Shown here piece after piece: positions 5,400 to 63,822 of a DNA stretch of 64,000 nucleotides (its first letter is position 1; each line of letters begins with the position of its first letter). Under the pieces are notes generated by a model. It worked only from the letters and a program-made list of their open reading frames with translations, ran no database searches and was not told the DNA's origin. Source of the stretch: Salinigranum rubrum (GTDB lineage Archaea; Halobacteriota; Halobacteria; Halobacteriales; Haloferacaceae); the NCBI RefSeq assembly GCF_002906575.1, contig NZ_CP026311.1:124001-188000 (forward strand). Reading direction: 5' to 3'. The position numbers and the translations under genes are program-made.

Positions 5400-5987
5400 T
5401 CACCGCTCAGCCAGCTCGTCGCTCGGGTAGATGCGATAGGTTCGACCCTGCCGTTCGCGGTAGAGCAGCCCTCGCTTCTCGAGTGCGGTCACGGTCTGGC
5501 TGACCTTGCTCTTCGAGAACTCGGATCTGTCTCTCAGTTCGATCTGCGTGAGACCGGGCGAAGTGAGCACGGGTTCGAGAACGCGACGCTCGTCTTCGGG
5601 CAAGAGATCCAATACACGAGACCGTGGGTTGGCTTCGGGGTCGATGGAGTCTTCGTCGGCGGAGTCGACCGTCGGTTCCTCCTGAGGCTCCACAGTAGCA
5701 GTGTCCGACGGCTCGGATGAAGGCGCTCCAGTGGATTCTGACTCGGGGAGACTGTCACGGACAGTGAGATACAGTCCCCCAACGACAGAAGCGACGAGAA
5801 CGGTGCCGAGAACGTACCAGAGCGGGTTCGTCCCGTGGACAGACCCCATCGATGTCCCCATCATCGAGCCCATCATCTCGTCGAGTGCCCGCTGCTGTTG
5901 GTACGCCTGCCAGCTGAGTGCCCCGCCGACGAGCACGATGGCCGCAACGAGGATACCGACCACGCGGTCTGCTCGTCGACGGTTCAT
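5400..5987 (-). CDS. Membrane-anchored winged-helix protein with Met-rich outer loop
   Basis: This 195-residue protein has a basic start (MNRRRADR), a helix at about 9-27, a short loop containing EMMGSMMGTSMGSVHG (about 37-52), a second helix at about 57-76, an acidic Ser/Glu linker (80-125), and a C-terminal MarR-like winged helix (EDERRVLEPVL, LTQIELRDRSEFSKSKVSQT, LEKRGLLYRERQGR). The basic N-terminus puts the Met-rich loop outside and the DNA-binding domain inside. It could be a one-component regulator sensing external copper. The winged helix resembles the haloarchaeal DUF7343 family as I recall it. It lies 131 bp downstream of the YHS permease on the same strand. Confidence 0.8.
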   Translation of the reverse strand: MNRRRADRVVGILVAAIVLVGGALSWQAYQQQRALDEMMGSMMGTSMGSVHGTNPLWYVLGTVLVASVVGGLYLTVRDSLPESESTGAPSSEPSDTATVEPQEEPTVDSADEDSIDPEANPRSRVLDLLPEDERRVLEPVLTSPGLTQIELRDRSEFSKSKVSQTVTALEKRGLLYRERQGRTYRIYPSDELAER

Positions 5988-6118
5988 CCCACCCACCTCG
6001 GTATCAGGCGGCTCGTCATCATATCTATACCTCGGCTCGCACGGTCTGTAGCAGTTTTGATTCGACTGTGCAAACCCGGGTCGGAATAGCACGAGGACCG
6101 TCCCACGAGACAGTACAG

Positions 6119-31947: not shown

Positions 31948-32982
31948 CTAGTCGCTCTGAATACGCGGGGCGAGCATCGCGAGGACGTCGCATTCGCCGT
32001 CGCTGAACTGGTACTCGAACATCATCGGGAAGTCGCCGCCGAAGGTGAGCGTGATCTCCGTGCCCGTGGGGAACTGTTTGGAGATATCGTTGACGTAGTC
32101 GAGGCTGTATAGTGCGTTGCCGTCAGCGGCCGTGAGCGCGACGAGGTCGTCATCCGCGAGTTCGAGACTGACGTTGTCGGTGTCGCCTTCGGCTTCGATG
32201 TAGACGGTGGTCTCGGCCTCGTCACAGCGGAAGCGAATGTGGTCGGAGACCATATCGGCGGCCTTGACGCCACGCGAGATTTGTGCTTCCTCGAGCGTGA
32301 GGGAGATGGGCAGGTCCATCTCGGGGATTTCGGGCTCTTTGCGGATGCTGTCGGGGTCGATGAGCGCCATCGTGAACTCGACGCCGTCGATGTGAATGAC
32401 GAGCTTGAACGACGTGGTGTTGAACGAGAGTTGGACGAGGTCGTTTTTCTTGGCGAGTTTGAGGACTTCCTCGAAGCGTTCGAGGTTGACACCGAGGACG
32501 CCCTCGGTAGCGTCGTAGGACTCGAAAGCGCCGGCTGCGAGAGAGACGTCGTACATCGCGACGTTGGCGGGGTCGACGGCTCGGGTGTGGATACCGTCTG
32601 GGCCGACGCGAATTTTCGCTTCGTCGACGACGGCGCGAAGCGTGCTGACGAATTCCTTGATCGCTCCGCCCTTGATGGCGGCGGTGAACTGCTGGGGCGG
32701 GCTCGTGACGACCTCTGCGTCGTCGTCGCCACCTTCGCTTTCTGGTTCGGCCTCCGTCTCCCCCTCGGTGTCGCTCTCGGCGGCTTCGTCTCCGTCTCCG
32801 TCAGTGTTAGTGTCAGTGTCGACGCTGGGGTCGGATTCCGGTTCGGCTTCTGTTTCGACCCCGGGTTCCGGGTGGGTGTCGATCTCGGATTCTGATTCGG
32901 CTTCAGGTTCGGTTTCAGATTCGACGTCGGGAGTAGTCGCGGGCTGTGCATCGGCGGTGTCGGATTCGATGTTGGTACTCAT
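31948..32982 (-). CDS. pcn: DNA polymerase sliding clamp (PCNA) with acidic N-terminal extension
   Basis: This is a 344-residue protein. Residues 97-344 are a complete PCNA (TAAIKGGAIKEFVSTLRAVV, EAKIRVGPDGIHTRAVDPAN, IDGVEFTMALIDPDSIRKEP, FPMMFEYQFSDGECDVLAML, ending APRIQSD). It is 248 aa long like chromosomal haloarchaeal PCNA. Residues 1-96 are an Asp/Glu/Ser/Thr tail (for example ETEPEAESESEIDTHPEP) absent from ordinary PCNA. The extra tail may repel DNA, mimic DNA or bind partners (inference). A shared palindromic promoter element is 153-181 bp upstream. It is the first gene of a four-gene operon. Confidence 0.93.
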   Translation of the reverse strand: MSTNIESDTADAQPATTPDVESETEPEAESESEIDTHPEPGVETEAEPESDPSVDTDTNTDGDGDEAAESDTEGETEAEPESEGGDDDAEVVTSPPQQFTAAIKGGAIKEFVSTLRAVVDEAKIRVGPDGIHTRAVDPANVAMYDVSLAAGAFESYDATEGVLGVNLERFEEVLKLAKKNDLVQLSFNTTSFKLVIHIDGVEFTMALIDPDSIRKEPEIPEMDLPISLTLEEAQISRGVKAADMVSDHIRFRCDEAETTVYIEAEGDTDNVSLELADDDLVALTAADGNALYSLDYVNDISKQFPTGTEITLTFGGDFPMMFEYQFSDGECDVLAMLAPRIQSD

Positions 32983-33134: not shown

Positions 33135-33163
33135 CCCCTCACCGCCCTTGGGGGGCCAAAACT
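33135..33163 (-). promoter_or_regulatory. CCCTCACCCCC/GGGGGCCAATACT element, copy a (before PCNA)
   Basis: CCCCTCACCGCCCTTGGGGG followed by GCCAAAACT (33135-33163). Copies b to g are at 42923, 45095, 52718, 54605, 54755 and 56617, always in this orientation relative to minus-strand genes. Read on the minus strand it is a TATA-like AGTATTGG followed by a GC palindrome. Confidence 0.75.
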
Positions 33164-33233: not shown

Positions 33234-33300
33234 GACATCCTCCCCGTCGTAAACGACAGGGCGTCCCACACGGTGGGAATGCCAGTTAGTCGTCGCTGGC
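33234..33300 (-). ncRNA. Candidate guide RNA (omega RNA) 3' end of TnpB element
   Basis: Known TnpB systems use an RNA that begins within the 3' part of tnpB and ends at the right end of the element with a guide taken from flanking DNA. Here the two hairpins follow the tnpB stop (33286) and end near 33234. The RNA is predicted from position and hairpins; the guide would be the bases left of about 33234. Confidence 0.55.
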
Positions 33301-34560
33301 AGTGGGTTTCGACTCTTGGAACGTTGTGAGTGTCATTTGCGAGGGTGTCTCGCTCTGCTCACACTGAGTCGTGGCGGTGTCACAACCGCTCCCGTCCTGT
33401 GGCGAGTCATCGCCTGCGGATTTCCACGGCAGGCTCTCTCCCCACGGGTCTACGCGACGTGCGATGTTCGCACTCGCGTTAATATCTGCTTGGAACGTCG
33501 ATACGTGGCACTCTGGGTTCTTGCATTTGAACTCGGCTTGTCGAGGCCGATACCCGATGTGCTTGCACGAGTGGCACGTCTTCGAGGTGTACTGAGGGTG
33601 GACATATCGTACCGGAATACCGGCGTCCTTCGCCTTGTCTTCGATTCGACCCTGCAACCGAGCGAAGGCCCATGAGTGCAGGCGTCGATTCATGTACTTC
33701 CCGTAGTCCAGCGACTCGCGGATGTACGCTAAGTCCTCCATCACGATGACGGGATTCTCGAACTGGCGAGCGTACTCCACGGACTCACGAGACGCTTTCT
33801 CGATTAGGTCTGTGAGTCGGTTCTGGTAGTACGAGAATCGCTCCTCGACGCGCCACTCAGAAGCGTCTCGCTCTTGCAGGCGTTTCAGGGTCGTGAACAT
33901 CTCTTTGCGGATGCGTTTGGCTTCTTTCCCGTTGATTAACAGAGGCTTCGTGGGGGTGTCGTGTTGGAGGGCACAGCCCGTGACCAACATTGACTCGCCA
34001 ATATCGAATCCAACCCGGGTCGGGGTCTCGGATAGTTCTGAGGTGTCCTTGATTTCGTATTCGACGGTGACGTGGAGCGTCCACGTCTTTCGGTGTCTCT
34101 GCAAGCGAAGTTCGCCTACCTTCGTATTCGACTCCTCATCAAGTAGTTCGATCCACAACTTCTCTTGTTCAGGATTCAGTCTAAGTGGTATCCAGAAGTT
34201 GGTTCCGCGACCGGGTTGTGGAACGTTCCAGCAAATTTCGTATTCACGCGAGGGGTCGCGGTCGAACTTCCCCGCTCGATTCACGAAACGGAGCGGGTGT
34301 TCGTCGTCTAACTCGTTGGCGTTGTACGTGTTGTGGAGTTTGGGGACGTAGGATTTGAGGGCGTCTTTCGCTTGGTACGGTAGGTTGTACGGCGTCACCA
34401 CGTCGTTCGTGGCGCTCATCGTCGTACAGTGTTGCTCGAAGGCGTCGTTGAGCGCGTCTCGGTATTCAGACAGCGTTTGCTGGAGACGTTGCTCTTTACA
34501 CCGTGTGGGTGGTGCGAGCGTGGCTTCCAGTGTTTTATTCGCTGTCTGAGGCGTTGACAT
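33286..34560 (-). CDS. tnpB: TnpB RNA-guided nuclease
   Basis: This 424-residue protein has the RuvC triad D186 (GFDIGES), E275 (VIVMEDLAY) and D359 (FQADINASANIA), and a Zn site between (C329, C332, C346, C351 in CHSCKHIGYRPRQ and CKNPEC). All are intact, so it may be active. The N-terminal wedge region is normal. It is not accompanied by TnpA. A 53-residue gene overlaps its start by 26 bp. Confidence 0.93.
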   Translation of the reverse strand: MSTPQTANKTLEATLAPPTRCKEQRLQQTLSEYRDALNDAFEQHCTTMSATNDVVTPYNLPYQAKDALKSYVPKLHNTYNANELDDEHPLRFVNRAGKFDRDPSREYEICWNVPQPGRGTNFWIPLRLNPEQEKLWIELLDEESNTKVGELRLQRHRKTWTLHVTVEYEIKDTSELSETPTRVGFDIGESMLVTGCALQHDTPTKPLLINGKEAKRIRKEMFTTLKRLQERDASEWRVEERFSYYQNRLTDLIEKASRESVEYARQFENPVIVMEDLAYIRESLDYGKYMNRRLHSWAFARLQGRIEDKAKDAGIPVRYVHPQYTSKTCHSCKHIGYRPRQAEFKCKNPECHVSTFQADINASANIARRVDPWGESLPWKSAGDDSPQDGSGCDTATTQCEQSETPSQMTLTTFQESKPTASDD

Positions 34561-35287: not shown

Positions 35288-36385
35288 CTACCCGAGGTAG
35301 TCGTCGAGATAGCCGTCTGGATCGTGGAGATCACCGGCCTCCTCAAGCGAGAGAAGTTCGCGTCGGATGTTCCGGATAGTCGTTGGAGTGGAGAAGCCTT
35401 CGTCGGCGAGTCGCTGCTGTGTGAGCCGGAGGTTGGTGAGCTCGCTTTCATCGTGAGCGTGATAGAGGCACGCGGCGGCGACGCCGGCGGGCTGTCGGCC
35501 GTTGGCGAGGACACCGACAGCGGGGGCGGTGACGAGTTGATGGGCTCGTCGCTCGACCCGGGGGTTGGCGTCGACGGCGTTGGCGAGTCGAGGGAGGAAG
35601 TCCTGCGGGAGCGGCGGTGGCGTTGCGAGTTCGAGCTCGCGATTCAGCAGTCGATAGGCGCTTTTGATATCGGATTCGTCGACGCGGGCAACGGCGGCGA
35701 GTTCTTCGAGGAACCGTGGCAGGCGTTCGAGGCGACAGGCGGCGAAGATGCTGGCGGTCGCGATGGCTTCGATGGAGCGCCCACGGAGGAGATTGCGCTC
35801 CCAGGCGTCGCGAAAGAGTCTCGCAGCGCGGTCGTGGATCGATGCGGGGAGTTCGACCGCACTCACGAGACGGGCGATTTCGCCAAGACCGGTACGGAGC
35901 GACTGGTCGTGAGTGGTACTCGCCTTCGCGCGGTCGTCCCATTTGCGAAGGCGTTTGAACTGGCGCTGTGTCTTCGATGAGAGTTCGTTTCCGTATCCGT
36001 CGCGGTAGGAGCCAATCTCGGTCGGGAGTCCCTTGTCGTGGCGTCTGATGGTCGTGGGAGCCCCGCCCCGGGCGGGTTGCCGTTCGCCATCGGCGGTTGT
36101 CTCCCACTGGAGTTCTCGATCAAGGATGTCTCGGGCGACCACGAGGCCGCACGCCTGACAGAAGGTTTCAGTCTCGTCGACGACGAGGTGTTCATCGGTC
36201 GCACACTCGGGGCAAATTGGGTCACCGACCGGTTGGGTGCGTTCGGGCGCCAATTTCTGGGCTGACGACGGCTCGGAGTCGATAGCTGGGGCGAGTCCCC
36301 GCTGGTGGGTACCGAGGGGGCTGCCGGACGGATGGGGCCCGGGACGGGCGTTGCTGTTCGCGGCCTCAAGATAGCGTTGGGACAT
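35288..36385 (-). CDS. tfb: Transcription initiation factor IIB (TFB)
   Basis: This 365-residue protein has an N-terminal Zn ribbon (CPEC at 58-61, FCQACGLVV with C76 and C79). A B-reader-like RRHDKGLPTEIG is followed by two cyclin folds (LRTGLGEIARLVSAVELPAS to LLNRELELA, and QDFLPRLANAVDANPRVERR to the end). Plasmid-borne extra TFBs are common in haloarchaea and can direct special promoters. The first 50 residues before the ribbon are longer than in many TFBs. It could serve the recurring elements on this replicon (inference). Confidence 0.92.
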   Translation of the reverse strand: MSQRYLEAANSNARPGPHPSGSPLGTHQRGLAPAIDSEPSSAQKLAPERTQPVGDPICPECATDEHLVVDETETFCQACGLVVARDILDRELQWETTADGERQPARGGAPTTIRRHDKGLPTEIGSYRDGYGNELSSKTQRQFKRLRKWDDRAKASTTHDQSLRTGLGEIARLVSAVELPASIHDRAARLFRDAWERNLLRGRSIEAIATASIFAACRLERLPRFLEELAAVARVDESDIKSAYRLLNRELELATPPPLPQDFLPRLANAVDANPRVERRAHQLVTAPAVGVLANGRQPAGVAAACLYHAHDESELTNLRLTQQRLADEGFSTPTTIRNIRRELLSLEEAGDLHDPDGYLDDYLG

Positions 36386-37330: not shown

Positions 37331-38600
37331 CTGAGGGCCGCCGGGCGGGCGGCCCTCAGTTCTCAGGTGCTCACGCCGGGTGGATCGTATACCTCCCCTC
37401 GGTTGAGCATGTAGTACATCGACACGAGCAGTTTCCGTGCCGTCGCCACGATCGCCTTCTTCGAATTCATACGACTGTTCAGCCGGTGGAAGAACCGGCT
37501 CAAATACTCGTCTCCACTGTTGTACACTGCCGTGTACGCACTCTGAACCAGGATCCACCGAACCCGTCCAGATCCGCGTTTCGAGATGCCACCCTCGATC
37601 CGCGAGTCGCCCGACTCGCGGATCGTCGGGTTCAGACCCATGTAACTCACGACCTCCTTGTGGCCGTCGAACCGATCGACCTCACCCAGTTCCGCGTAAA
37701 TCAACAACGCGGAGTAGTAGCTGACACCTGGAATCGTCATGAGCAGCTGGGTCTCGGTCAGAGACCCAGCGCGCTCTTCGATCGCCGCTTCGAGCTGTGT
37801 GATTTTCTCGGTCAGCGTCTTGATCACGTCGAGATACGACTCCAACAACGCATCCCACGGGGACGGGAGCGAGAGTTCCCAGAGGAACTCTCGTCCCTTC
37901 ACACTCAGTGGCTTCACTTTCCGCGTGATGCCGTTATCGGCGAGCAAGCCGTGGATCTTGTTGGCGAACTTGGTCCGATCTTCGATTAGGGTCTGTCGCC
38001 CGCGCACGAGTGCGCGGGCTTCCCTGATCTCGTCGGTGGGAACGTAACTTTCCGGAACGGAGTTGAGCCGAAGCAGTCTCGCGAGTTCTTTGGCATCGAC
38101 GCGATCAGTCTTCTTGTCCGACTGAGCGATGAGCGTCAATTTGCCGGGATGAGCGACAGTCACGTCCAAATACTCGGCGAGAGTATCGTAGACGTGGTAG
38201 TAATTGCTGGTCGCCTCGATCACCGCACGAGACCCAGCGTACCGCTGGGCGAGGTCGTCGAGGTTCGCGTTCTCGACGCGAACCTCTTCGACGACTTCTC
38301 CAGCGTCGTTGATTACTGCCACCTGTGCGTACCGCTTGTGTAAGTCGATTCCGAGGTACATGGTCTGTTCCTCCGGGACACCGGTGCGTGAATCAGAAAT
38401 TCACCTATGCGGGCTTTCCCGGATGCCGCGCGGCGCGGCATCCGGGCTGGTACGCCCATAACTCGGCTTCTTTCGCACTCGGACCAGTCAGCACCACGTG
38501 CTCTGCGGCACGGAATACAGCTCGGTCTCTTGCGTCCCATAGTTGATTCACGCTCCGCTGGGATAGCAGAATTTCCATCGAGTCAGCACGCCGGTTCTGT
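37331..38600 (-). mobile_element. IS110-family insertion sequence
   Basis: One transposase gene with non-coding flanks. The 3' flank starts with a perfect 12-bp hairpin CTGAGGGCCGCC-loop-GGCGGCCCTCAG (37331-37359), 3 bp from the stop codon. The 5' flank (38362-38630) has a perfect 13-bp hairpin at 38418-38446. The outer borders are not determined. Confidence 0.7.
37363..38361 (-). CDS. IS110-family transposase (DEDD recombinase)
   Basis: This 332-residue protein has an N-terminal RuvC-like domain with D6 (LGIDLHKRYAQVAV), E49 (AVIEATSNYYHVYD) and D86/D89 (TDRVDAKELARLLRL). The C-terminal Transposase_20 domain (TIPGVSYYSALLIYAELGEV, YMGLNPTIRESGDSR, SKRGSGRVRWILVQSAY) contains the Ser region. 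Intact and full length. IS110 recombinases pair with an RNA from the element's flank. Confidence 0.93.
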   Translation of the reverse strand: MYLGIDLHKRYAQVAVINDAGEVVEEVRVENANLDDLAQRYAGSRAVIEATSNYYHVYDTLAEYLDVTVAHPGKLTLIAQSDKKTDRVDAKELARLLRLNSVPESYVPTDEIREARALVRGRQTLIEDRTKFANKIHGLLADNGITRKVKPLSVKGREFLWELSLPSPWDALLESYLDVIKTLTEKITQLEAAIEERAGSLTETQLLMTIPGVSYYSALLIYAELGEVDRFDGHKEVVSYMGLNPTIRESGDSRIEGGISKRGSGRVRWILVQSAYTAVYNSGDEYLSRFFHRLNSRMNSKKAIVATARKLLVSMYYMLNRGEVYDPPGVST

Positions 38601-40917: not shown

Positions 40918-41787
40918 TCACTCCTCAAGTCCGGCGTTGGCGACGGCCGAGGCGAGGGCCGCTTCGTCGATGGCACCCTCTTCCGTCTCCCCCTCAGGGT
41001 CGGACTCGCCGTTGCTGTCGGTGTCGTGGTCGCCGTCATCGCTCTGGTCGGCGTCGTCGGCGTCGTACACGCGGGTGGAGCCGCCCTTGGTGTCGGCCTC
41101 GGCCTCGGCTTCGACCTCAACCTCGCCATCGGCGTCGTCGTCGCGGACGGCGTCCATTCCAACGTCTTCGCGAGCGTCGTTGAGGGCGTCGCGGTAGACT
41201 TCGAGCGAGAGGTTGTCCCCGTACTGTTCGCGGCACATCGCGACGTAGGGGGTCGAGTCGATACCGTCCTTGTCTCCGTTATCGAAGGCATCGAGGCGAG
41301 CGGCCGTCCGGTCGATGGTTTCGCGCACCCACTGGTTTCGGGTGGCTTCATCGACGCGGGTGATGGTCTCGGGCCGAAGGGAGACGTTCACGTTGCCGTC
41401 GTCGGTTTCGTACGTGCTGGGCTTGGCGGTGATAGCGACGTACGCGGGGGGTTCGAGGCCGGAGAGGAACGCGGCGGCGTCGGGCTGGTACTGACCGGCG
41501 TAGGCGAACACCGTCCCCGTGGGATCGACGATTCGGGCCTGCCAATATTCGCTGTCCTTGCCAACGTCGTTGACTTCGGTGACGGTCCCGACGAGGAAGT
41601 AGCGGTTCGCGGTCTCGCCGCTGGGGAGCAGCGCGAAGTTCGGGGCGCGCTCCTCGTCACTCTCTTTGAAGACGTGGGTTGCGTCGTTGAGTTCGGCGGC
41701 GAAGGCGCGCTTTGCGACCTGTCGGCCCTGTCGCTGGGTGCTGTTGCTATCGGTACTGCTGTCGGCTGTGGATGCTGAGTTACTCAT
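40918..41787 (-). CDS. RPA-associated protein (RPAP family)
   Basis: This 289-residue protein has KRAFAAELNDATHVFKESDE, LLPSGETANRYFLVGTVTEV and YAGQYQPDAAAFLSGLEPPA, the signature of haloarchaeal replication-protein-A-associated proteins (COG3390). An acidic C-terminal tail follows (VEVEAEAEADTKGG and further). It is encoded 38 bp after RPA on the same strand, the classical rpa-rpap operon. Confidence 0.9.
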   Translation of the reverse strand: MSNSASTADSSTDSNSTQRQGRQVAKRAFAAELNDATHVFKESDEERAPNFALLPSGETANRYFLVGTVTEVNDVGKDSEYWQARIVDPTGTVFAYAGQYQPDAAAFLSGLEPPAYVAITAKPSTYETDDGNVNVSLRPETITRVDEATRNQWVRETIDRTAARLDAFDNGDKDGIDSTPYVAMCREQYGDNLSLEVYRDALNDAREDVGMDAVRDDDADGEVEVEAEAEADTKGGSTRVYDADDADQSDDGDHDTDSNGESDPEGETEEGAIDEAALASAVANAGLEE

Positions 41788-41825: not shown

Positions 41826-42779
41826 CTACGCGAGTGGGTCGGCCTCATCGACGAGGAGATATTTCCCGATGACGCGGCCGCTGACTCGGTAGTAGCGACC
41901 GACGAGGGCGTCGGTGAGGTCGTTCGCGACGACGCTCGTATCGAGAGCGTCCATCGCTTGCTGTTTGGCCTCCTCGATGGTGATGTCGGCGAGGGCTTTG
42001 GTCGCCTCCTTGTCGAAGATGGCGTGCTGGACGCGAACGCCGTCGTCGAAGACGGCCTTGATGCGGAGGTCGAATTCGCCTTCGACCGTTCCGTGTTCGG
42101 CACACCGGCCGTCCTGGAGAACGCGCGTACAGCCGTCGTGGGGACAGCGCTTGATGAGCCCGCTTCCGGACTGGATCGCGACCATCGGGGCCTCGATGGT
42201 CAACTCCTCGGCGTTGTCGCCGACTTCGATATCGTCATCGACGGGGTCGATGACCGACCGGGAGTTGAGGTTGATGGAGTAGCGGCCTTCGTACTCGCTG
42301 GTGATGACGTTGTCGAGTCGGTACACGCCGTCCGCGTCGAGTTCGGGAAGGTCGGCTTTGGCCCACTTGGTGAACTTGAGTCGGCCGCTCTCGTCGCCGA
42401 TGAGCCCGACCTGGGAGATGCTGTCGCTGGTCGGCTCCCATAGGTCGACGACTTTGACGGTGACGCTGACCCACTGGCCGTCGGTGTTGATTTCGTCGAG
42501 CGTCGTGTCGCCGGCACTCTGCGAGGGGAGTGCGAGGTCGTCGTATTCGATGCCGAGCACGTCGAGGTAGTGGTTGCGCGTGGCGCGAGTAGCCTCCTCG
42601 AGCGGCACGTTGTAGCCGTTGACCATCTGGTCGAGCCGGGTGACGATATCGTCGACACTCGGGAGGGCTTCATCGCCGGCGTCGTCGGGGAACTGTTCGA
42701 TGAGGGTGGTCGCGGCCGTCGCGAGGTCGTCGCTGGAGGCGTTGACCGCAGAATCTGCGGGTGTTGCGTTGGTGGACAT
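41826..42779 (-). CDS. rpa: Replication protein A (RPA, ssDNA-binding)
   Basis: This 317-residue protein has an N-terminal helical part, an OB fold (SVTVKVVDLWEPTSDSISQV, DESGRLKFTKWAKADLPELD, EYEGRYSINLNSRSVI) and a Zn finger (RCPHDGCTRVLQDGRCAEHG). A C-terminal domain follows (VVANDLTDALVGRYYRVSGR). It coats single-stranded DNA and works with RPAP. ATG 42779 (MSTNATPADSA) is chosen. Its promoter carries element copy b. Confidence 0.93.
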   Translation of the reverse strand: MSTNATPADSAVNASSDDLATAATTLIEQFPDDAGDEALPSVDDIVTRLDQMVNGYNVPLEEATRATRNHYLDVLGIEYDDLALPSQSAGDTTLDEINTDGQWVSVTVKVVDLWEPTSDSISQVGLIGDESGRLKFTKWAKADLPELDADGVYRLDNVITSEYEGRYSINLNSRSVIDPVDDDIEVGDNAEELTIEAPMVAIQSGSGLIKRCPHDGCTRVLQDGRCAEHGTVEGEFDLRIKAVFDDGVRVQHAIFDKEATKALADITIEEAKQQAMDALDTSVVANDLTDALVGRYYRVSGRVIGKYLLVDEADPLA

Positions 42780-42922: not shown

Positions 42923-42951
42923 CCCCTCACCCCCCTTGGGGAGCAAAAACT
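42923..42951 (-). promoter_or_regulatory. CCCTCACCCCC/GGGGGCCAATACT element, copy b (before RPA)
   Basis: CCCCTCACCCCCCTTGGGGA followed by GCAAAAACT. It lies 144-172 bp upstream of the RPA ATG (42779). The palindrome is a little degenerate compared with copies e and f. Confidence 0.7.
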
Positions 42952-43292: not shown

Positions 43293-45029
43293 TTAGCTGT
43301 CGTCGCGCCAGCGCTGGCCGCAACTGGCACACGAGAGGAGTCTGGTCGGTGGCTCGTCGATGGAGCGGAGTTGGACGAGTCGGTAGTGCGCCCGGTCGTG
43401 GGAGCACTTGGGACACCGGCAGGTGGTCGTGGGAAGGCCGAGGCTGGGCTCTGTCGTCGCCGTCGTCTCGGAGGTGTCGGGAGTCGCGACGCCGGTGAGC
43501 GCGTTCATGCTGGCGTCTTCGGTGGCTGCTATGGGTTCGTCGGGAGCGCCCGAGTCCTCGTCCTCGAGTGCGGTTCCGAAGTGGTCGAGGTTGCGCACGA
43601 GCGCCCAGAGACGGCGCTTGCCCTGTGGGACGGGATGGTCTGGGCCGGGCGTCGAGTCGGGCCGTGAGGTGGCGATGACGTCGTGGACGGCGGCGTGAAT
43701 CGCGTCTCGGTCGGCGTCGGCGTCGACGAGGACGGAGACGACGGTGGCTTGTTCGCGCCACCAGGTTGGGAGTGGGATGTCGCCGTTTTCGTCGAATATC
43801 TCGGTGGCTTTGAGCCATTCGTGGGCGTCCATCTGCCCGCTCTCTTCGGCGTCAAGGCGGTCGACCGGCGTGTGGACGGGACGAGAGACTTCCTGCACAC
43901 CGGGTGTGCCGAGCGCGGGTATCGAGCGGACCCCGTGCCGCTGGAAGGGCTGTTCGATGCCGCGCTCACGATTTCGTTTGGCGTATTTCGCCCAGTCGAC
44001 GTTGGGGAGGTCGCCGCGTGGCGCTGGCCCGTCGCGGGCCTCGATGACCGTGATGCGAGTCTCGGAGTCGGCGGCGAGCGTCGCCTGGCCCTGGTATTTC
44101 CCGACTTTCCCGGCGACAACGCGCACGAGGTCGCCTTCATGGAGGATGGTTCCCTGATTTGATTTCGTCCAGACGGTGAATTTGATGGTCCCGGTGTCGT
44201 CTTCGATGAGGCCGACCTGCTGTTGGGTGCGGGATTTGGGTTGCCAGAGTCGCGTGACGGTCCCCTGGATGTCGGCTTCGACGTTGTACTTCGAGGGGAT
44301 GATCGGCACCGAAGAGATGGGCTGGATGACGCCCGCTTCCTGGTAGAGTTCGTCGAGGACGTTCGATTGGGCGGTGAAGAGGTCCTGTCCTCGGGCGACC
44401 TTGCTGGCGAGGCGGTGTTCGAGGATGGCCTTGTTCGGGGGCGTGACGAGGCGGTCGGTGATTCGGTCGGCAGCGTCGTGCACGCGCTGGGTGGTTTCCT
44501 CGTCGAGCTGCTCGAACGGGTCGTAGGAGTGGATGTTGTCGCCGATGACGCGGTCGTTGTAGTCAGCCCGGCGCTCGCGGTACTCACTGAGGAGTTCCTC
44601 CCGGCGCCGTGTTTCGCGGTCAATACCCGCGACGTGGGCGGCGAGGGCTTTCTCTCGCTGGCGTTTCCGCTCTTCGTGAAGTCCGTGGAGGCGCTCTTGA
44701 GCTTCGAGTGGGAGTCCAGTGAGGTCCTCGTCGGTGAGGTCCATCGGGTCGATATCCCGGGATTGCGTGGTGCGGAGGCTTGCACCCACCCAGTAGGCGT
44801 CGAGTTCCTGTCCGCCGGTGCCTTCGATTTCGAGGCCGAACTCGTCGTATTCGGGCTGGGTCCGGGCGGCCATCATGAGTTCGCCTGCGTTCTCGAGGCG
44901 GACGCCGAGACAGTCGCTCTCGAGGTGGGGACTCTCGTAAAGCCCGCGCAGCCGGAGTTCGTCGAAGCGATCGTCTTGTTCAACGTCGCTGTTCGAGAGG
45001 CGGTGCTGTCCGTCGTGGTAGTATGTCAT
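43293..45029 (-). CDS. OB-fold protein with C-terminal TFIIS/TFS-like zinc ribbon
   Basis: This is a 578-residue protein. It has a helical charged middle (EERKRQREKALAAHVAGIDR and following), then an RPA-type OB fold (ADIQGTVTRLWQPKSRTQQQ, VGLIEDDTGTIKFTVWTKSN, VRVVAGKVGKYQGQATL). At the very end is a zinc ribbon: CPKCSHDRAHYRLVQLRSID, EPPTRLLSCASCGQRW (C539, C542, C567, C570). The RSIDEP with D558/E559 is the TFIIS/TFS hairpin motif that reaches into the RNA polymerase channel. This fusion is unusual. It may link ssDNA/RNA binding to RNA polymerase, or use the ribbon only for DNA binding. ATG 45029. Confidence 0.85.
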   Translation of the reverse strand: MTYYHDGQHRLSNSDVEQDDRFDELRLRGLYESPHLESDCLGVRLENAGELMMAARTQPEYDEFGLEIEGTGGQELDAYWVGASLRTTQSRDIDPMDLTDEDLTGLPLEAQERLHGLHEERKRQREKALAAHVAGIDRETRRREELLSEYRERRADYNDRVIGDNIHSYDPFEQLDEETTQRVHDAADRITDRLVTPPNKAILEHRLASKVARGQDLFTAQSNVLDELYQEAGVIQPISSVPIIPSKYNVEADIQGTVTRLWQPKSRTQQQVGLIEDDTGTIKFTVWTKSNQGTILHEGDLVRVVAGKVGKYQGQATLAADSETRITVIEARDGPAPRGDLPNVDWAKYAKRNRERGIEQPFQRHGVRSIPALGTPGVQEVSRPVHTPVDRLDAEESGQMDAHEWLKATEIFDENGDIPLPTWWREQATVVSVLVDADADRDAIHAAVHDVIATSRPDSTPGPDHPVPQGKRRLWALVRNLDHFGTALEDEDSGAPDEPIAATEDASMNALTGVATPDTSETTATTEPSLGLPTTTCRCPKCSHDRAHYRLVQLRSIDEPPTRLLSCASCGQRWRDDS

Positions 45030-45094: not shown

Positions 45095-45123
45095 CCCCTC
45101 GACCCCCTTGGGGGGCCAATACT
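45095..45123 (-). promoter_or_regulatory. CCCTCACCCCC/GGGGGCCAATACT element, copy c (before OB/TFS gene)
   Basis: CCCCTCGACCCCCTTGGGGG followed by GCCAATACT, then TGAGCG as in copy a. It lies 66-94 bp upstream of ATG 45029. Confidence 0.75.
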
Positions 45124-45377
45124 GAGCGAGAACTAGCCGAGTCCGTTCTGTGGCGGCAGAGGTCGATGGGTCGCTCACAACCCGGTGTGGTCCCCCCGCG
45201 GCGGTTCACCTCCAGGTTAAGCTCGCGTTCGCAAATGACGACCTCTCGATCTCGAATGCCCTACGATTCGTCGATGGTGATCCCCGACGGACGGATGACA
45301 GTCTTGTCGCTTCGTCTATTTGCGCGGTTTCTGGCTGAAGTATAGCGGTGAGAATATTTGGACAATCGCTGACTGAG

Positions 45378-45917
45378 TCAGGATTCTATGTACTCTATTG
45401 CATCCCAGATGTTGAGAACACGAATTCGTCCCTCGTAGTACGTATTGTCGATCACACCTGAAATCGATCGTTCAGCGTTCCGGTCATCGATCAATATCCC
45501 GACGGAATCATGCCCTGTCGAACCAAGAAGCATTACCGCAGCCGCTGGAAGCTCTGAATCAGTCTTCCGCAACTTGTCAGGGTCCGTCTGCTCAGACTTC
45601 GCCAGCCGCTCATGGACACGGTCCATGATTTCGCCAGCGCGCGGGCCGTCATGTACCCGGACCCCAGACTGGACAGTGTCGATGAGTGTGATCCACGTCG
45701 TTGTGTCCGCTCGGTCAACCCAGTCGATACTGATGTATCCTCGTTGCTCTGCGAGTTCCTCAACGACACCTGGGGTGAGGTAGAGATCAATTCCCTCCGC
45801 TTTGACGTACTGGATGAAGGTTTGATACGGCGAAGAGTCTGTTCCCCCGATGGTTCGAAGAAAGCTCGTGTCGAGAATGAGGGCCGTCGGGAACGGGGAC
45901 GGATGGTCCTCACTCAT
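45378..45917 (-). CDS. PIN-domain toxin-like ribonuclease
   Basis: This 179-residue protein has a PIN-fold layout: first acidic site ALILDTSFLRTIGG (D), VVEELAEQRGYISIDW (E), KTDSELPAAAVMLLGSTGHD (D/E), GILIDDRNAERSISGVIDNT (DD). This suits a PIN nuclease that cuts RNA. It overlaps the upstream HTH gene by 8 bp, as toxin-antitoxin pairs do. Confidence 0.8.
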   Translation of the reverse strand: MSEDHPSPFPTALILDTSFLRTIGGTDSSPYQTFIQYVKAEGIDLYLTPGVVEELAEQRGYISIDWVDRADTTTWITLIDTVQSGVRVHDGPRAGEIMDRVHERLAKSEQTDPDKLRKTDSELPAAAVMLLGSTGHDSVGILIDDRNAERSISGVIDNTYYEGRIRVLNIWDAIEYIES

Positions 45918-46539
45918 CTGCGCGCTGATACGGCCCCTGCTCGATTGCGCGTTCGTGAACGTCCACCTCAAACGCGATGTCGTTGAGCGTCGGGTCGTGG
46001 TCTTTCACCACGGCGATGATTCGTTCGATGGCCTGCGTGACCGCGATGGCTTCTACAGCAGGCACACCGAGCTTATCGGCGACGCCACGACGCGTCGTCT
46101 CACCCTGCAAGTAGGTGAGTGTGGCCATGACCGCAGGGGCGAGTGCGGCTTTCCCATGCCGATCAGCGAAGAGTTCGAGATCGTCGTCGACGCTAATCGC
46201 CCCGTAGACTGCGATGATGGCGGGACCGAGTTCGAGAGTCATCTCGTCTGTCCAGTCCCCACTCACGGGGTCTGCACGCCAGAGTGCGGAACCACCTTCG
46301 TACTCGTCTAATTCTTTGGCGACACCCAACTCGGCGAGCGTATTCGCATATTTGTAGGCAGTGCTCTTAGAGAAGCCCTGACGCTCACGAACTGCCGTGA
46401 CCGTTGTTGGGGAGTTGATCAACAAATCCGTGTAGAACCGTGCGAGATCAGGCGTCCCCAGCAGCTCCTGAATGACGAAAAACCGGTGGGCCGTGTGTCC
46501 CGCATCCGGTGGTTGGATGGAAGATGGCACGTTCGACAT
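45910..46539 (-). CDS. HTH antitoxin-like partner of the PIN protein
   Basis: This 209-residue protein has a winged helix near the N-terminus (LARFYTDLLINSPTTVTAVR, ERQGFSKSTAYKYANTLAEL) and an acidic/helical C-terminus (FADRHGKAALAPAVMATLTY, LQGETTRRGVADKLGVPAVE). It is of the haloarchaeal DUF7437 type as I recall. It is followed with overlap by the PIN gene. The start codon lies inside a perfect inverted repeat, so it probably represses itself. A second, mutated gene of the same family is at 47466-48055. Confidence 0.8.
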   Translation of the reverse strand: MSNVPSSIQPPDAGHTAHRFFVIQELLGTPDLARFYTDLLINSPTTVTAVRERQGFSKSTAYKYANTLAELGVAKELDEYEGGSALWRADPVSGDWTDEMTLELGPAIIAVYGAISVDDDLELFADRHGKAALAPAVMATLTYLQGETTRRGVADKLGVPAVEAIAVTQAIERIIAVVKDHDPTLNDIAFEVDVHERAIEQGPYQRADE

Positions 46540-52717: not shown

Positions 52718-52746
52718 TTCCTCACCCCCTTTAGGGGACCAATACT
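52718..52746 (-). promoter_or_regulatory. CCCTCACCCCC/GGGGGCCAATACT element, copy d
   Basis: TTCCTCACCCCCTTTAGGGG followed by ACCAATACT. It differs from copies e and f only by a few bases in the centre of the palindrome. It precedes the small membrane gene (ATG 52547). Confidence 0.7.
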
Positions 52747-54604: not shown

Positions 54605-54633
54605 TTCCCTCACCCCCTTTGGGGGCCAATACT
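54605..54633 (-). promoter_or_regulatory. CCCTCACCCCC/GGGGGCCAATACT element, copy e (before RPA-RPAP)
   Basis: TTCCCTCACCCCCTTTGGGG followed by GCCAATACT, then TTTCG. It lies 67-95 bp upstream of ATG 54538. Confidence 0.75.
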
Positions 54634-54754: not shown

Positions 54755-54783
54755 TTCCCTCACCCCCTTTGGGGGCCAATACC
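54755..54783 (-). promoter_or_regulatory. CCCTCACCCCC/GGGGGCCAATACT element, copy f
   Basis: TTCCCTCACCCCCTTTGGGG followed by GCCAATACC, differing from copy e in one base (last). It lies 217-245 bp before the fusion gene and 150 bp from copy e. The pair may form a double site. Confidence 0.7.
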
Positions 54784-56616: not shown

Positions 56617-56645
56617 ATCCCTCCCCCCATTTGGGGTCCAATACT
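56617..56645 (-). promoter_or_regulatory. CCCTCACCCCC/GGGGGCCAATACT element, copy g
   Basis: ATCCCTCCCCCCATTTGGGG followed by TCCAATACT, then TTTCG as in copy e. Because AGTATTGG on the minus strand ends about 27 bp before ATG 56611, this copy suggests AGTATT acts as the TATA-like core and the palindrome lies between it and the transcript start. Confidence 0.7.
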
Positions 56646-56741: not shown

Positions 56742-58949
56742 TTAGCCGAAGAAGCGGGAGAACATCCCTCGTTGTTTCCGGCGTTCACGTTCGTCGGCCT
56801 GGATCTGCTCGTTTGCCTCCTCGTACTCGCGGAGGACGGCGTCGAGGCCGGAGAGCGTCTCCTTGGCCGTCGCAACGTCTTCGCGACGGACCATCGGGCG
56901 GAGAATCTGCTTGAGCCGCTTGACGGGGTCATCCGGAAGGTCGGCATCCGCCGGCGACAACAAGCCGGCCCGCTTGAGCTGGGTCCGGTAGCGTTCGCGT
57001 TCGCCCATCAGCTCGTCCATCGCCTTCAGGTAGGTCTCGGCGGTGAACTTGTAGCGGTCGCGTTCCTCCTCAACATCCGCCAGATCGCGGAGCCGCTCTT
57101 CGAGGCGGGTCTGATACCGCGCCAGCACGCGGTTGTCCTCGCGAGCGACCTTCATTGCCTGGGCTGTCGGCGTTCGACCCTCGATGGGACCAACGGTCCA
57201 ATCCGTCGGATGTTTCTCGGAATCGTCGAGATGGGGATTGGTCCGCGACCAGTTGCCACCGGCTTTCGTGACGGATTCGGTCATCATCCGCTGCGTACTC
57301 TCATCGAGGTCTGAGTCGATGTCCGTCCCGTCGGGAGCAGCGGGCGAGACGCCCTCGGGAGTGACGCTCCCATCAGGGGTCGACTCGCCCCGGTCGTTCG
57401 AGGCGGGGGAAGCGTCGCGCATGGCCGTCGACGTTGACTGTCCAGTGGGGGCGTTCGCAGCCGCGTCCGCAGCAGCGGCCGGGTCCACCCCCATATCCAC
57501 ACCCACACCTCCGTCGTCGGCCCCACTGTCGCTGTCGTTGTCGCCGTCGAGGCCGAGGAGTACGTCGGGGGAACTCTCGGCGGCAGTCGCGGCGTCATCC
57601 GTGTGCAGCGGACCTGGGGCGCTCGGAGCGGCCTCGGCCGATGCAGACGTGCCATCACTCACGAAAGAACTCCCGGCCGCACCAGCGGAGTCCTGTGGCT
57701 TCTGAGCGGATGCTGAGGATGCCACGTCATTCGCGGGGATATCCGAGGCCGAGGTCGAGGGAGAGGACGATGCCGTTGGCCCGTCGGCCTTCGAGAACTT
57801 CACCCCATCGTCACTCGGGAGTTCGTAGTGGTCATCCACTCGGAGGAGCGCGCGGGCGAGAGTGACGCCGCCGTAGGTCGCACCACTCGAGTAGTGTTGG
57901 CCGTCCCACTTGGGTCGCATCAACCCGGAGGTACGAAAGAGCGCGTCCATCCGATCGGGGTCTTTCCCCGTCCAGAACGCAAGCGTATGAGCGAACGCCA
58001 TATCCGCTTCAGACTGACTCGGATAGTCGGCATCGTGAGACCCCCACATCGAGGAATCGCCTTCGTAGAGGCGGCGTTTCCGGTCGCCACCTTGCGAGTC
58101 GTACATCCGCTTCAGAATCTCGCCATCTGATAGCTCGATACCGGGCCCTGCGAGGTCGGCAAACGTACTGGGGCACACCGGGGGAAGGTACTTCGTCTGG
58201 ACCCGCTCGAGGGCTTCTCGGATGGCCGGGTCACGGATGTTTCTGAAGGCGTCACCGTAGCGCTCGACGAGTGCGCTTTCACTCTGCCGACCAGGGACGT
58301 CGGTGGAGCGCCGATCGCCACGATTACCTCCACTTTCTGAGGTATCGCTCGCGGCGGTATCGGCGAGACTCAACTGCCCATCCGAGCTGGACTCACCACG
58401 AATGTACTCACCGTGAACGGCGTCTAACTCGTCCTGACATTTCCGAATCTCCGTGGGCGTGTCCTTGAGGTGCGCGCCGGTCACGGTGAAGTAGCGATCA
58501 GAGTCGTACATCTCGACGCGACCCCGGCGATTCCCGGCGGCGGTCAGTTCGCCCCCGACGAGGATATGCACACCCGTGCCGGAGGGAGACACTTCGGTGT
58601 ATGAGTCGAGGCGGTCGATGATATCTTCGGCCCAGTCTTCGAGCTTGCCTGTATCAGGGTCACGACACTTATCGAGGTCGACGCCAGTGATAGAGACGTT
58701 GTCGGTGAAGACGAAGCCAAGGCCATCGCCGGGCACGCGGGAGTCGTTGAGTGCCTCCCACGCAGTGTCGAAGTCGCGGCGCTGTTTGGGGTTGGTGACG
58801 TCGCAGTTGATATCACCGCTGGTGCGATACGGTTTGGTCGGGATTTTGGTAGCTTTCCCGTTGCGCTCTCCCTCACGCCAGAGAATCCAGTTCTCGATAG
58901 AGCGGATATTGGCCGGGATTACGTCGTTTGTTACGTCTATATTCGTCAT
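56742..58949 (-). CDS. Archaeo-eukaryotic-type primase/polymerase (phage/plasmid type)
   Basis: This 735-residue protein has an N-terminal AEP domain: LGFVFTDNVSITGVDLDKCR with D91 and D93, then SPSGTGVHILVGG with H128, and VEMYDSDRYFTVTGAHL. A helical domain follows, ADMAFAHTLAFWTGKDPDRM, DALFRTSGLMRPKWDGQHYS, as in the NrS-1 type phage primase-polymerases. Then comes a Ser/Asp/Ala-rich linker and a coiled-coil-like end (LEERLRDLADVEEERDRYKF). It probably primes and extends the plasmid's DNA at the repeats next to its gene. ATG 58949 (MTNIDVTNDV). Confidence 0.88.
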   Translation of the reverse strand: MTNIDVTNDVIPANIRSIENWILWREGERNGKATKIPTKPYRTSGDINCDVTNPKQRRDFDTAWEALNDSRVPGDGLGFVFTDNVSITGVDLDKCRDPDTGKLEDWAEDIIDRLDSYTEVSPSGTGVHILVGGELTAAGNRRGRVEMYDSDRYFTVTGAHLKDTPTEIRKCQDELDAVHGEYIRGESSSDGQLSLADTAASDTSESGGNRGDRRSTDVPGRQSESALVERYGDAFRNIRDPAIREALERVQTKYLPPVCPSTFADLAGPGIELSDGEILKRMYDSQGGDRKRRLYEGDSSMWGSHDADYPSQSEADMAFAHTLAFWTGKDPDRMDALFRTSGLMRPKWDGQHYSSGATYGGVTLARALLRVDDHYELPSDDGVKFSKADGPTASSSPSTSASDIPANDVASSASAQKPQDSAGAAGSSFVSDGTSASAEAAPSAPGPLHTDDAATAAESSPDVLLGLDGDNDSDSGADDGGVGVDMGVDPAAAADAAANAPTGQSTSTAMRDASPASNDRGESTPDGSVTPEGVSPAAPDGTDIDSDLDESTQRMMTESVTKAGGNWSRTNPHLDDSEKHPTDWTVGPIEGRTPTAQAMKVAREDNRVLARYQTRLEERLRDLADVEEERDRYKFTAETYLKAMDELMGERERYRTQLKRAGLLSPADADLPDDPVKRLKQILRPMVRREDVATAKETLSGLDAVLREYEEANEQIQADERERRKQRGMFSRFFG

Positions 58950-59471: not shown

Positions 59472-62400
59472 TTATTCAAGGTCATCGAGTAGATTGGCCG
59501 CGCTGACGAACTCCCATTCTCCATCCGGCCCCCAGATCGACTCGGTCAGTTCACCGTGTGACCGCCCCCGTCGTTTGGCAGGGAGCTCGTCGATCAAGCC
59601 GGCGTTCGCGAGAGCCCGCGCGATATTCCACGCTTCTGAGAGATTTGGGACGACCCAGATTTTCTTCTCGACGTCGAAGCGGTTGAAGTCCTCGTAGTGC
59701 TTGACGATGTGCTCGTGGCGAACGTTCCAGATCGCCTCTCCAATCACAGCTGGCTTGTCGTCTTTGTACGCGACGACATCTGGCTTCACGTCGGTCCCGA
59801 AGATCGGGGTGTATCGCTTGACGAAATAGTGAGAGGTTTCATCGTTCGCGAGTGTGCGAGCGAGTGCCTCGACCATCACCTTGTGGTAGGTCTTCTCGTT
59901 GACGTCACCCTGGTCTTCACCGAAGGCGACGCGAGCGCCACACGCACGCTGACCGTCCTCGGTGACGGTGTAGTAGACACGGAGATTCTCGGTCACCTTC
60001 TCGAGGTAGCCGAGGTCGATGAGCCGGTCGGGGTCTACCTCAGAGAAGTGACTATTTATCGGCTTCATCGTATCGAGCATATCGAACTTGGGATGTCGAC
60101 CGTTCACAGTCGTCACGACGGCTGCGAGAAATTGGCGTTCCTGAACTGTCAGATTCTCGTCTATGCCTGAGCCAACGCCACCGACCCAGGTATCGTGCCG
60201 GTCGGCGTGGTCAGCGTCCGAAGGATTCTCCGTGGCCGCCCCCGCTCCATCGGCGCGGGTCGTATCTCCCTCCACGCCACCCTGTGCAACGGCGGTAGCA
60301 GTCTCGCCCGTGGTGGTTGGGTCGGCCCCGTTGTAGAGGAAGTCGTTGATACGATCTTCCAGATTGCTTACCGAATCTTCACCGCCACGTTCAGCGGGAG
60401 ATTCGGCCTGAGCGCCACCGATTCCTTCGCTGGCTGCTCGGCGCGAACCAAAGTCGTCCGTGAGGTCGTCGGCGGGCCGGGTGACAGGCCTCGACGGGCC
60501 ATTCTGATCGCCACCATTTGCGGGTTGCGTCCCGACCTGAGTTGCTACGTTCCGCCGACTCTCCCAGACGTCTTCTTCGGGCTCCGAGTCGGAGTCGGGG
60601 CCGGAGCCAGATACATCGTTGTGGTGTACGTTCGAATCGGTGGCATCGACCCCAGAGCCGGTGTGGGATGCCGAGAGTTGCTCGGCGGAGGGGTCCGTGT
60701 TGCTTCCGGGGATGAGACAGTAGTCGTCCCGCGTTTGGCGTGTCTTCTTCGCGTCGATCCCCCCGAAGGAGTCACCGTAGGGCGAGACTGAATCCTCGTT
60801 CACGGGGTCGTCCGAGTCCCGGTGGCCGGCGGGGATGCCGACCGGCAGGAGCGTGACAAGTTCGGGAACGTCGGTCATGAAGCCCGTGTCGGGGAGTTGG
60901 GCGACCCATTCCCCACGAGGGAGTGACGTAATCCGGTCAACGAGTTCCTCGTCTTCGATGCCCTCGTGGAAGAGTGTCATCACCAGCTCTTCGTCGACGG
61001 CGAGTTTGCCGATGAGTTTGGTGTTGATGTTCCGCAGAATCTCCTTGTAGGAGGAGACGTCGAGGGCGTCGGATTTTACCTGCTCGGCGAAGTGAACGAT
61101 AACCTCGAGGGCGAGGCCGAACTCACGGCCGTCGGGGATCATGTCGTCGCGAACCAGTTCGGACTGGAGGAGCGGTGCAGCCTCGTCGATAATCAGGTTG
61201 ATGACGTAGCCATCGCTGACAGGCGGTGTCTTGCCGAGGCGATGGCGGAGGCGAGCGCCGGACCAGATGTAATCGAGCAACATGAACGTGAAGAGGTTGC
61301 TCGAGGCGGGCCGGAGGTCGCCGGTGTCGATGAGAACGACGCGCTTGCTGGCGAGGATGTCCTGAATGTCGAACATTGGCGATTGGTGGGCGTAGTGCCC
61401 GTTCTCCTCGTCCCATTCTGGGACGAAGTTGAGAATCCGCCAGATGAACGACCGCTCTGCTAGTTTCGTTATCCGATTCATCACCGCGTCGATGGAGGTC
61501 ATGAACCGCTGGCGGTCAGCATCGACGTGGCGCTGAAGGGTCCGGTGGAGCGTGGCATCGCTCACGGGTGGGAGCTTCCCCTGGGCCTTCGTTTCCTCGT
61601 TCATGCTCCCAAGTTTCTGCATGTCCATCGCCGCAGTCAGGAGGTCGCTGATGGGCCATGCATCCTGCCCGTGAACGGGGTCGAACATCGCCTTGATGAG
61701 GCTGTTGAGAATTTCCTGAGCGACGAACGCCTGGTCAGCCATTTCTCGACCGAGGACGTACACGAGCAGTTCGTTGTAGCGGTCGATTTTCTCTTGGACA
61801 GCGACGGTTCGACTGACGCCGGCAGCGAGTTGCGGGCGAATATCGAAGTAGGGGAACGCGAGGACCTCATCGTTCGGCCCCGGGACGGTGATATGGACGA
61901 CGTCGTCGAGGTTCCCGAACTTCTTGAAGTGGGCGCGCTTGTACTGGTCGGCCATCGACCCGCCCTTCTTGTCGAAGACGAAGATGGGGCCGTCGAACGA
62001 CTCGTAGGCGCTGAGGGTGTCGTTAATCATCGCGGTGGTCTTCCCGCCACCCGTCGTGGCTGCGCGCATCACGTGGTGGGTGAGTTGTTCGGCGCTCAGG
62101 CTGATCGGGATGTCCGGCCGGTTGTCGACGGCAGTCTCGGCGTACCCGATACACATCCCGTGGTTATACTGCGAGAGGAGGTCCTCGTCAGTCGCAGTGA
62201 GTGGCGAGCGAGCGTCGGGTGAGCCGCCGGAGGATCCGCGACTCGCGCGGGGGAGTGCGTCCGTGTGGGGGACGACGACGAAGTTCGCGAGTTCGTCGGG
62301 CGAGGCACACAGGATGGGGTCGCCTTTGCTGAAGCGCCCGGAGAGCCCGCTCGAGGTCGCAAGCCGGGCGTGACAGAGCGCGGCGAACTCTTTGTCGCTG

Positions 62401-63822
62401 ATGCCGAGGAGGTCGCCTTCGATGCCGTAGTAGGGGCCTGACAGCGAGGTGAAGGCGTTCGAGATGCTCTGGATGGTCTGTTCGTTACAGGCGGCCCGGA
62501 GCGTGAGGTCGAACGTCGTCGTGGGCTGTTTGTGGTCGATCTGGGCCATCCGCGAGCCGGTGATTTTGTTGCTGTCACCGGCGGTGACGGTCCCCCGACC
62601 TGCTCTGAGATATCGCCTCGGTGGATGTTGCGGCGTTCCTGTTCTGAGGTACCGAACATCTGGCGGGCGAACTCGTTTTTGAACGCGCTGAACGTCCCGT
62701 GGTTGCCCATCTTGAGGTTGCGCTTGTGGACTTCGGCTTCACTCGTCCAGTCGGGTCGTGGTTTGAACACGGCCTGGAACATGAACGGGTCGTTGGCGTG
62801 CACAGCCTGCTCAAGGAGGACGCTCAGGGGCGACCGATACTGGTCGTCGTTGTCCATCGCGATGTCGCTGAACGGCCGTAGGAGCGTCATCCAGTCGTTC
62901 TTTTTCGTCGAGATGCCTTTCCAGCGAACCAGCGAGGGGCGTTTCTCCTCGGGGACTTCCTCGGGACGGAGGGGGACGCCTTTCTTGATGAGTTGCTGCT
63001 CGGCTTCCTCTGGTGAGGGCCCGTCGCCACGGCCGATATCGTGGTCCTCGAACACGGCGGGGTCCTCGAACCCGCTGAGGCGCTCGAGGTCACCAATATC
63101 TTCGAGGGTCGCAATCCGTCGACCGCCCACCTGTGCGTTGCCGTTGTCGCTGGCGAACGCGGCCACGGGGTTGAACGGGACGATCTCGAACTCAAAAGAC
63201 TCGGGATACATCGCGGCGATGTTGGCAGCGAGTGTCTTGAACGCGGTTGCGTCGTAGGGCGTTACCGAGACGTAGAAGTCGAAGCGTTTGGTGTCTCGCG
63301 GCTTGTGAATGACGAACTCGAAAGATTTCTTCGTGTCTTTGAGTCCGAGGCGGCCCGCGAGGTTGAACCGCCCAGTGTCGGTGACGCCGGCTCGATAGAG
63401 GCCGAAGAGTCCGGCGATGATGTTACCGGGCGTGACCTGCTCGCGAGCGGGGGAGATGTGGATGTACGGGCGGGCTTCGATAGGGTCGCCGAGTTTCTTT
63501 CCGGGCCCGGACCCGACTTCGACGTCCTCGTAGGCGGCGAGACGGTCCTCACGTGACGCATCCTGGTTGCCTGCGGTTGCTGGCGTCTTGAGGTCGGAGG
63601 GCTCTGTGCCAGTCTCTGCGGGGAGTTCCTCCTCTGTACGGTCGTTCTGTTGCTCGCTCGCGTCCGTCGTGGAGTTCGGAGCGTCGGTCCGGAGATGCGA
63701 GAGGTCGAGGCCTTTCCGCTCAAAGACGCTCTTGGGGGCTGTGAGCTCTCTGGAGCGTCGGCGTCCGTGTCGACGTCGGGGTCCCGGTCGAGTGATTCGC
63801 GGTCTGAGGGCGTTGCGGTCAT
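59472..63822 (-). CDS. Large HerA/VirD4-like ATPase, frame interrupted twice at G/C runs
   Basis: Starting at ATG 63822 (MTATPSDRESLDRDPDVDTD), the frame moves by one at a run of five G (63734-63738) and again at five C (62592-62596). Adding one base at each gives one protein of 1450 residues. The N-terminal part reads VFERKGLDLSHLRTDAPNST, then EVGSGPGKKLGDPIEARPYI and FYVSVTPYDATAFKTLAANI. The ATPase part has Walker A TTGGGKTTAMIND (near 62040) and Walker B NLIIDEAAPLL. The C-terminal half has a winged-helix-like end. It resembles conjugation or DNA-packaging ATPases of haloarchaeal plasmids. The precise family is not settled. Confidence 0.8.

Follow-up and report, generated by a model that had tools for sequence, protein, structure and literature searches.

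Archaeal TFS is a protein of ~100 amino acids with an N-terminal and a C-terminal zinc ribbon, and the N-terminal ribbon has been modelled to dock on the funnel of RNA polymerase. The C-terminal ribbon, shared with TFIIS (PF01096), has four cysteines, a hairpin with the pattern Q-x-R-x-x-D-E and an LPTT lead-in, and in TFIIS it is preceded by domains I and II. Haloarchaeal RPAs of the PRK07217 family (RpaB1/Rfa3 type) pair an RPA-type OB fold with a zinc finger that, to our knowledge, is not of the TFIIS type, and we know of no ribbon or catalytic acids in the tail of the single-OB SSB of Sulfolobus. This SSB binds RNA polymerase via its C-terminal tail (PMC5346138), and for RPA41 of P. abyssi an interaction with the A1 and A2 subunits of the polymerase is known, RPA also stimulating transcription (PMC3820547). 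In the crenarchaeal inhibitor TFS4, a TFS paralogue, lysines replace the acidic pair of the hairpin (PMC5715097, PMC7289017). In vitro, a stalled elongation complex is reported to stop DNA unwinding by archaeal MCM, and the enzymes that clear such complexes are described as not known (PMC3820547).

The window analysed here, 64,000 nt of Salinigranum rubrum DNA and part of a 198-kb contig, encodes a protein, designated OB-TFIIS, in which an RPA/SSB-like OB fold is fused to a single TFIIS/TFS-type ribbon (Table 1). The limits given for the gene in a first-pass annotation were correct; the coding strand is the minus strand, with the ATG at 45029 and the stop codon ending at 43293. An in-frame GTG at 45209 could add 60 N-terminal amino acids, and was rejected as the start because the orthologues align from the ATG.

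Table 1. Features of the OB-TFIIS gene and its surroundings, in window coordinates
Feature	Position	Strand	Basis
OB-TFIIS fusion gene, 578 aa	43293..45029	minus	translation, orthologues, alignment
Three-helix region, residues 177-232	44334..44501	minus	inside core common to Rfa5/Rfa6-type family
RPA/SSB-like OB fold, residues 249-330	44040..44285	minus	profiles, strands in model, Foldseek
Small strand-helix-strand domain, residues 410-478	43596..43802	minus	conserved in orthologues, seen in model
TFIIS/TFS-type Cys4 zinc ribbon, residues 538-575	43305..43418	minus	PF01096, PDB sequence matches, Foldseek
Acidic hairpin tip, D558-E559	43353..43358	minus	invariant in 17 complete orthologues; dN/dS of hairpin 0.041
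Small conserved gene directly downstream of OB-TFIIS, 93 aa	43001..43282	minus	in 12 of 18 orthologous loci, several with flanks of just 8 kb
Plasmid RPA (replication factor A, PRK07217)	41826..42779	minus	377 bits, cut-off 353
Gene after RPA, 'DNA-binding protein' or 'hypothetical' in relatives	40918..41787	minus	relatives' annotation
Plasmid TFB (TFIIB family)	35288..36385	minus	Pfam, 2.6e-28
Plasmid PCNA	31948..32982	minus	Pfam
Second RPA-like protein, 531 aa	52943..54538	minus	PRK07217, 3e-91, 306 bits, under cut-off of 353
NrS-1-like primase/polymerase	56742..58949	minus	PF22763, 6e-26; PHROG DNA primase/helicase
Upstream element of OB-TFIIS, TATTGGCCCCCCAAGGGGGTCGAGG	45097..45121	minus	conserved in orthologues
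Same element, upstream of RPA gene	42924..42948	minus	sequence match
Variant TTTTGGCCCCCCAAGGGCGGTGAGGGG, upstream of PCNA	33143..33153	minus	sequence match
Exact element, upstream of second RPA; identical copy 150 bp apart	54607..54631; 54757-54781	minus	sequence match
Further copies, including before small genes	56619-56643; about 52720-52744	minus	

The C-terminal ribbon

In Pfam (hmmscan), residues 538-575 score 51.3 bits (E=1e-13) as PF01096, for which the curated threshold is 21 bits. At 11.4 bits, IS1595 transposase is the second-best ribbon family for the C-terminus, and the Pfam matches listed for the ribbon include no rubredoxin-like family; a rubredoxin-like or transposase zinc ribbon was ruled out by these profile scores. 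The top match in a phmmer search of the PDB is the RPB9/TFS ribbon of Thermococcus celer (1qyp, E=2e-8), followed by RPC10/RPC11, RPA12 and TFIIS, with the alignment spanning LPTT, CPKC, QLRSIDEPPT, C..CG and WR. Ribbons of RPA12, RPB9, TFIIS and RPC11 similarly account for almost all of the top 50 Foldseek hits to a model of the C-terminal region, with a best E of 7e-3 for what is a short domain in a low-confidence model. The first-pass annotation had placed a TFIIS/TFS-type ribbon in the last 40 residues, based on CPKC...CASCG and RSIDEP (D558 and E559). The motifs are there as stated, the latter as QLRSIDEP, the four cysteines, the Q-x-R-x-x-D-E hairpin and the LPTT lead-in are all present, and PF01096 scores far above the next ribbon family. 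Judged by its sequence, the C-terminus of OB-TFIIS is a true TFIIS/TFS ribbon whose acidic hairpin is intact.

OB-TFIIS differs from archaeal TFS in having one ribbon rather than two and in its length, and from both TFS and TFIIS in the OB fusion. It scores 33.1 bits against the TFS_arch equivalog (cut-off 64.75) and 27 bits against TFSII (cut-off 237), below both thresholds (NCBIfam), and there is no Pfam match to domain I or II of TFIIS.

The OB core and its plasmid relatives

The OB fold matches PF01336 at 2e-5, under the Pfam cut-off, and residues 252-330 match the NCBIfam RPA family PRK07217 at 9.5e-13, also under the family cut-off. In a low-confidence model, Foldseek finds it to resemble the archaeal RPA/SSB folds 2ken, 8aaj and 1o7i, so that the RPA-like OB fold proposed in the first-pass annotation is backed by PRK07217 and by structure comparison, the Pfam match being weak. 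The OB core would be expected to bind ssDNA. The AlphaFold models, with a mean pLDDT of 54 for the whole protein and 62 for the separate C-terminal region (low confidence), were used for domain boundaries and secondary structure only. For the strand-helix-strand domain (residues 410-478), there is no informative match among the Foldseek hits listed for the C-terminal model.

Residues ~93-340 form a core common to many plasmid proteins of haloarchaea, a large family annotated as 'SOSS complex subunit B family' or 'DNA-binding' whose members share the helical part and the single OB fold with ~30-36% identity. Based on replicon and length, we infer that the family members on pNRC100 and pNRC200 are Rfa5 and Rfa6 of Halobacterium salinarum. 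Deletion of rfa5 or rfa6 confers ~15-fold mitomycin C sensitivity, with normal growth and normal survival of UV and radiation (PMC5924565). Like OB-TFIIS, these proteins are plasmid-borne, but they either terminate after the OB fold or carry different tails, whereas OB-TFIIS has ~240 additional C-terminal residues that include the ribbon; a TFIIS ribbon is absent from all other family members examined. One ribbonless relative, encoded on pNG500 (positions 5755-6906 of locus L058), has instead an apparent C2H2-type finger at its C-terminus, which suggests that members of the family exchange their tails.

Distribution and origin of the fusion

Orthologues of OB-TFIIS, with 54-95% identity, are found on haloarchaeal replicons, where they are annotated as hypothetical proteins. 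Full-length fusions are present in 8 of the 391 genomes of the class that were searched, mostly on large replicons, and further genomes, one of them in the same genus, have a TFIIS ribbon in an open frame of 584-623 amino acids. In the plasmid collection, the TFIIS ribbon occurs only in OB fusions and in stand-alone TFS/RPB9-type genes, and among the relatives examined the fusion is confined to the OB-TFIIS clade. No viral relatives were found in phage records or in IMG/VR, and a virus origin was therefore dropped.

In the most divergent orthologue, the ribbon has 72% identity to a common haloarchaeal TFS ribbon, and that of the S. rubrum protein is 45-52% identical to haloarchaeal TFS sequences and 42% to T. 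celer. Given this resemblance to the haloarchaeal TFS C-ribbon, the ribbon was probably captured from a host TFS. The host genome still has TFS, in two copies, and the fusion is therefore unnecessary for ordinary cleavage. The first-pass annotation knew of no protein with this arrangement, and likewise no description of an OB or SSB protein with a TFIIS ribbon was found in the literature searched, a body of work largely outside the subscription journals. Single-OB plasmid proteins and TFS ribbons are each known, and their fusion appears to be new.

Selection on the acidic hairpin

All 17 of the orthologues read that have a complete ribbon agree at the four cysteines and at Q553, R555, D558 and E559. 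With D558 and E559 invariant, the conservation that the first-pass annotation had made the test of its proposal is borne out, and a degenerate ribbon, as in RPB9 or TFS4, is ruled out. By pooled Nei-Gojobori estimates, dN/dS is lowest in the hairpin (0.041), is 0.10 over the ribbon and 0.11 over the OB fold, reaches 0.25-0.27 in the helical and middle parts, and is highest, at 0.42, in the linker that precedes the ribbon. The hairpin is, by this comparison, the most constrained part of OB-TFIIS, and the ribbon is therefore kept by function-preserving selection and is no passive appendage. Two copies are damaged. In the Haloglomus halophilum orthologue, a frameshift directly after RSIDEPPT removes the second half of the ribbon, which is therefore not strictly essential on that plasmid, and the copy on a Haloquadratum walsbyi contig is broken and contains N-runs.

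These values bear on two alternatives. The ribbon might serve merely as a nucleic acid- or protein-binding zinc finger in an SSB, with the acidic hairpin a relic, as the apparent finger of the pNG500 relative, which suggests that fingers are swappable, and the missing N-ribbon of TFS would allow. An acidic tip is, however, not expected to aid nucleic acid binding, and with the full Q-x-R-x-x-D-E kept in the most conserved part of the protein, we consider such a role improbable. It is still less probable, indeed very much so, that the ribbon is an inhibitor or decoy which, by filling the pore of the polymerase, shuts out the host TFS or halts host transcription, to the benefit of the plasmid. 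TFS4-type inhibitors do act at this site (PMC5715097), but their inhibition needs lysines at the tip, where OB-TFIIS has kept the catalytic acids under selection. As the acidic pair is retained, unlike in TFS4, cleavage rather than inhibition is expected. Two differences from TFS could alter the fit in the pore: the residue before D-E is alanine in TFS and isoleucine in most members of the fusion family, and RFF before the third cysteine in TFS is RLL in the fusions.

Linkage to replication genes and a shared upstream element

The genes surrounding OB-TFIIS encode a plasmid RPA, TFB, PCNA, a second RPA-like protein and a primase/polymerase. The PRK07217-type RPA is a separate, neighbouring gene, located downstream of OB-TFIIS on its strand together with the 93-aa gene and other small genes. 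Over 18 orthologous loci, several of which had only 8 kb of flank, RPA is a neighbour in 13, TFB in 14 and PCNA in 11. The second RPA-like protein extends C-terminally past the RPA region.

One upstream element is common to OB-TFIIS and the plasmid's RPA and PCNA genes. The 25-bp element, on the coding strand TATTGG-CCCCCAAAGGGGG-TGAGGG and also written TATTGG-CCCCAAAGGGG, is located upstream of OB-TFIIS, RPA, the second RPA and others, and is plasmid-specific and palindromic (TATTGGnCCCCAAAnGGGGGTGAGGG). With a relaxed pattern, six sites are found in the 198-kb contig, all within the replication module, and 20 random sequences of the same length, drawn from a first-order Markov model, contain none; a strict pattern, with ≤3 mismatches, is absent elsewhere in the genome. 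In some cases, the ATG lies ~31-33 nt past TATTGG, a spacing that would fit TATTGG being a TATA-like box accompanied by an operator-like palindrome. Scans for sigma-70 promoters and terminators do not apply to Archaea. The element may serve as promoter/operator for a regulon of replication genes, with the plasmid TFB perhaps recognising it.

Such an element could also belong to a system in which OB-TFIIS is a plasmid-specific transcription factor, the ribbon serving transcription of plasmid genes, for example together with the plasmid TFB at the shared element. The OB fold would bind the non-template strand or nascent RNA, the ribbon would rescue an early paused polymerase and the link to replication would be regulatory only. 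The presence of the replicon's own TFB at most of the orthologous loci, the promoter-like spacing of a plasmid-specific palindrome upstream of several genes, and the stimulation of transcription by archaeal SSB/RPA in vitro (PMC3820547) all accord with this. The nearest genes are, however, RPA and replication genes, and the reading of the element by TFB is conjectural, and we regard a role as a dedicated transcription factor as unlikely.

Proposed function

The reading that we favour, with somewhat more confidence than doubt, is that OB-TFIIS is a plasmid protein of the ssDNA-binding type, with an Rfa5/Rfa6 core, in which a captured host TFS C-ribbon acts on stalled RNA polymerase. The OB core would bind ssDNA or nascent RNA, by itself or together with the RPA encoded by the adjoining plasmid gene, and the ribbon, on a long flexible linker, would insert into the pore of a host polymerase that has stalled or backtracked. 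There D558 and E559 would complete the RNA cleavage site of the polymerase, which would then restart or leave the path of the plasmid replisome, the stalled complexes being tethered to ssDNA, RPA or the replisome. The polymerases concerned may be at forks or on the plasmid's own genes. The narrower proposal of a replisome-linked transcript cleavage factor, an SSB-tethered ribbon dedicated to restart or removal of RNA polymerase at forks, is offered tentatively and with more reservation than conviction.

The domain identities, the selected hairpin and the replication gene setting support in part the first-pass interpretation, in which the fusion could bring ssDNA or RNA binding to the polymerase, for example at collisions of replication with transcription. 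With a primase encoded on the replicon itself, its further suggestion, of a role in making primer RNA, is less likely. The missing N-terminal ribbon is a point against docking on the polymerase as TFS does; the conserved N-terminal part (residues 1-104) or the strand-helix-strand domain could substitute, and the latter could contact either RNA polymerase or the replisome. A polymerase contact such as that documented for the Sulfolobus SSB (PMC5346138) is here presumed for OB-TFIIS, as are cleavage and a role in collisions. If the replisome-linked proposal is correct, ssDNA binding and the rescue of backtracked RNA polymerase would be directly and physically coupled. OB-TFIIS also represents the probable appropriation, by a mobile element, of the catalytic portion of a host elongation factor. 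How archaeal forks pass stalled RNA polymerase has been described as unknown (PMC3820547), and OB-TFIIS is a testable candidate.

Other genes of the module

At 59472-62549, a 1025-amino acid protein, weakly like the archaeal DNA-import ATPase CedB and F-type conjugation TrbC, is also kept in sister plasmids. A TnpB-like (Cas12f1-like) protein is encoded at 33286-34560, and the ORF at 37363-38361 resembles, at 61% identity, the stretch of locus L026 in which an IS110 transposase is annotated; both are likely insertions in the replication module. Upstream of OB-TFIIS, positions 45378-46539 constitute a variable slot, also present in loci L020-L026, that has a HTH regulator (DUF7437/TrmB-like here; BlaI/MecI, Rrf2 and others elsewhere) beside small proteins. 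The protein encoded at 45378-45915 is PIN-like by eye, and the slot possibly holds exchangeable toxin-antitoxin-like pairs.
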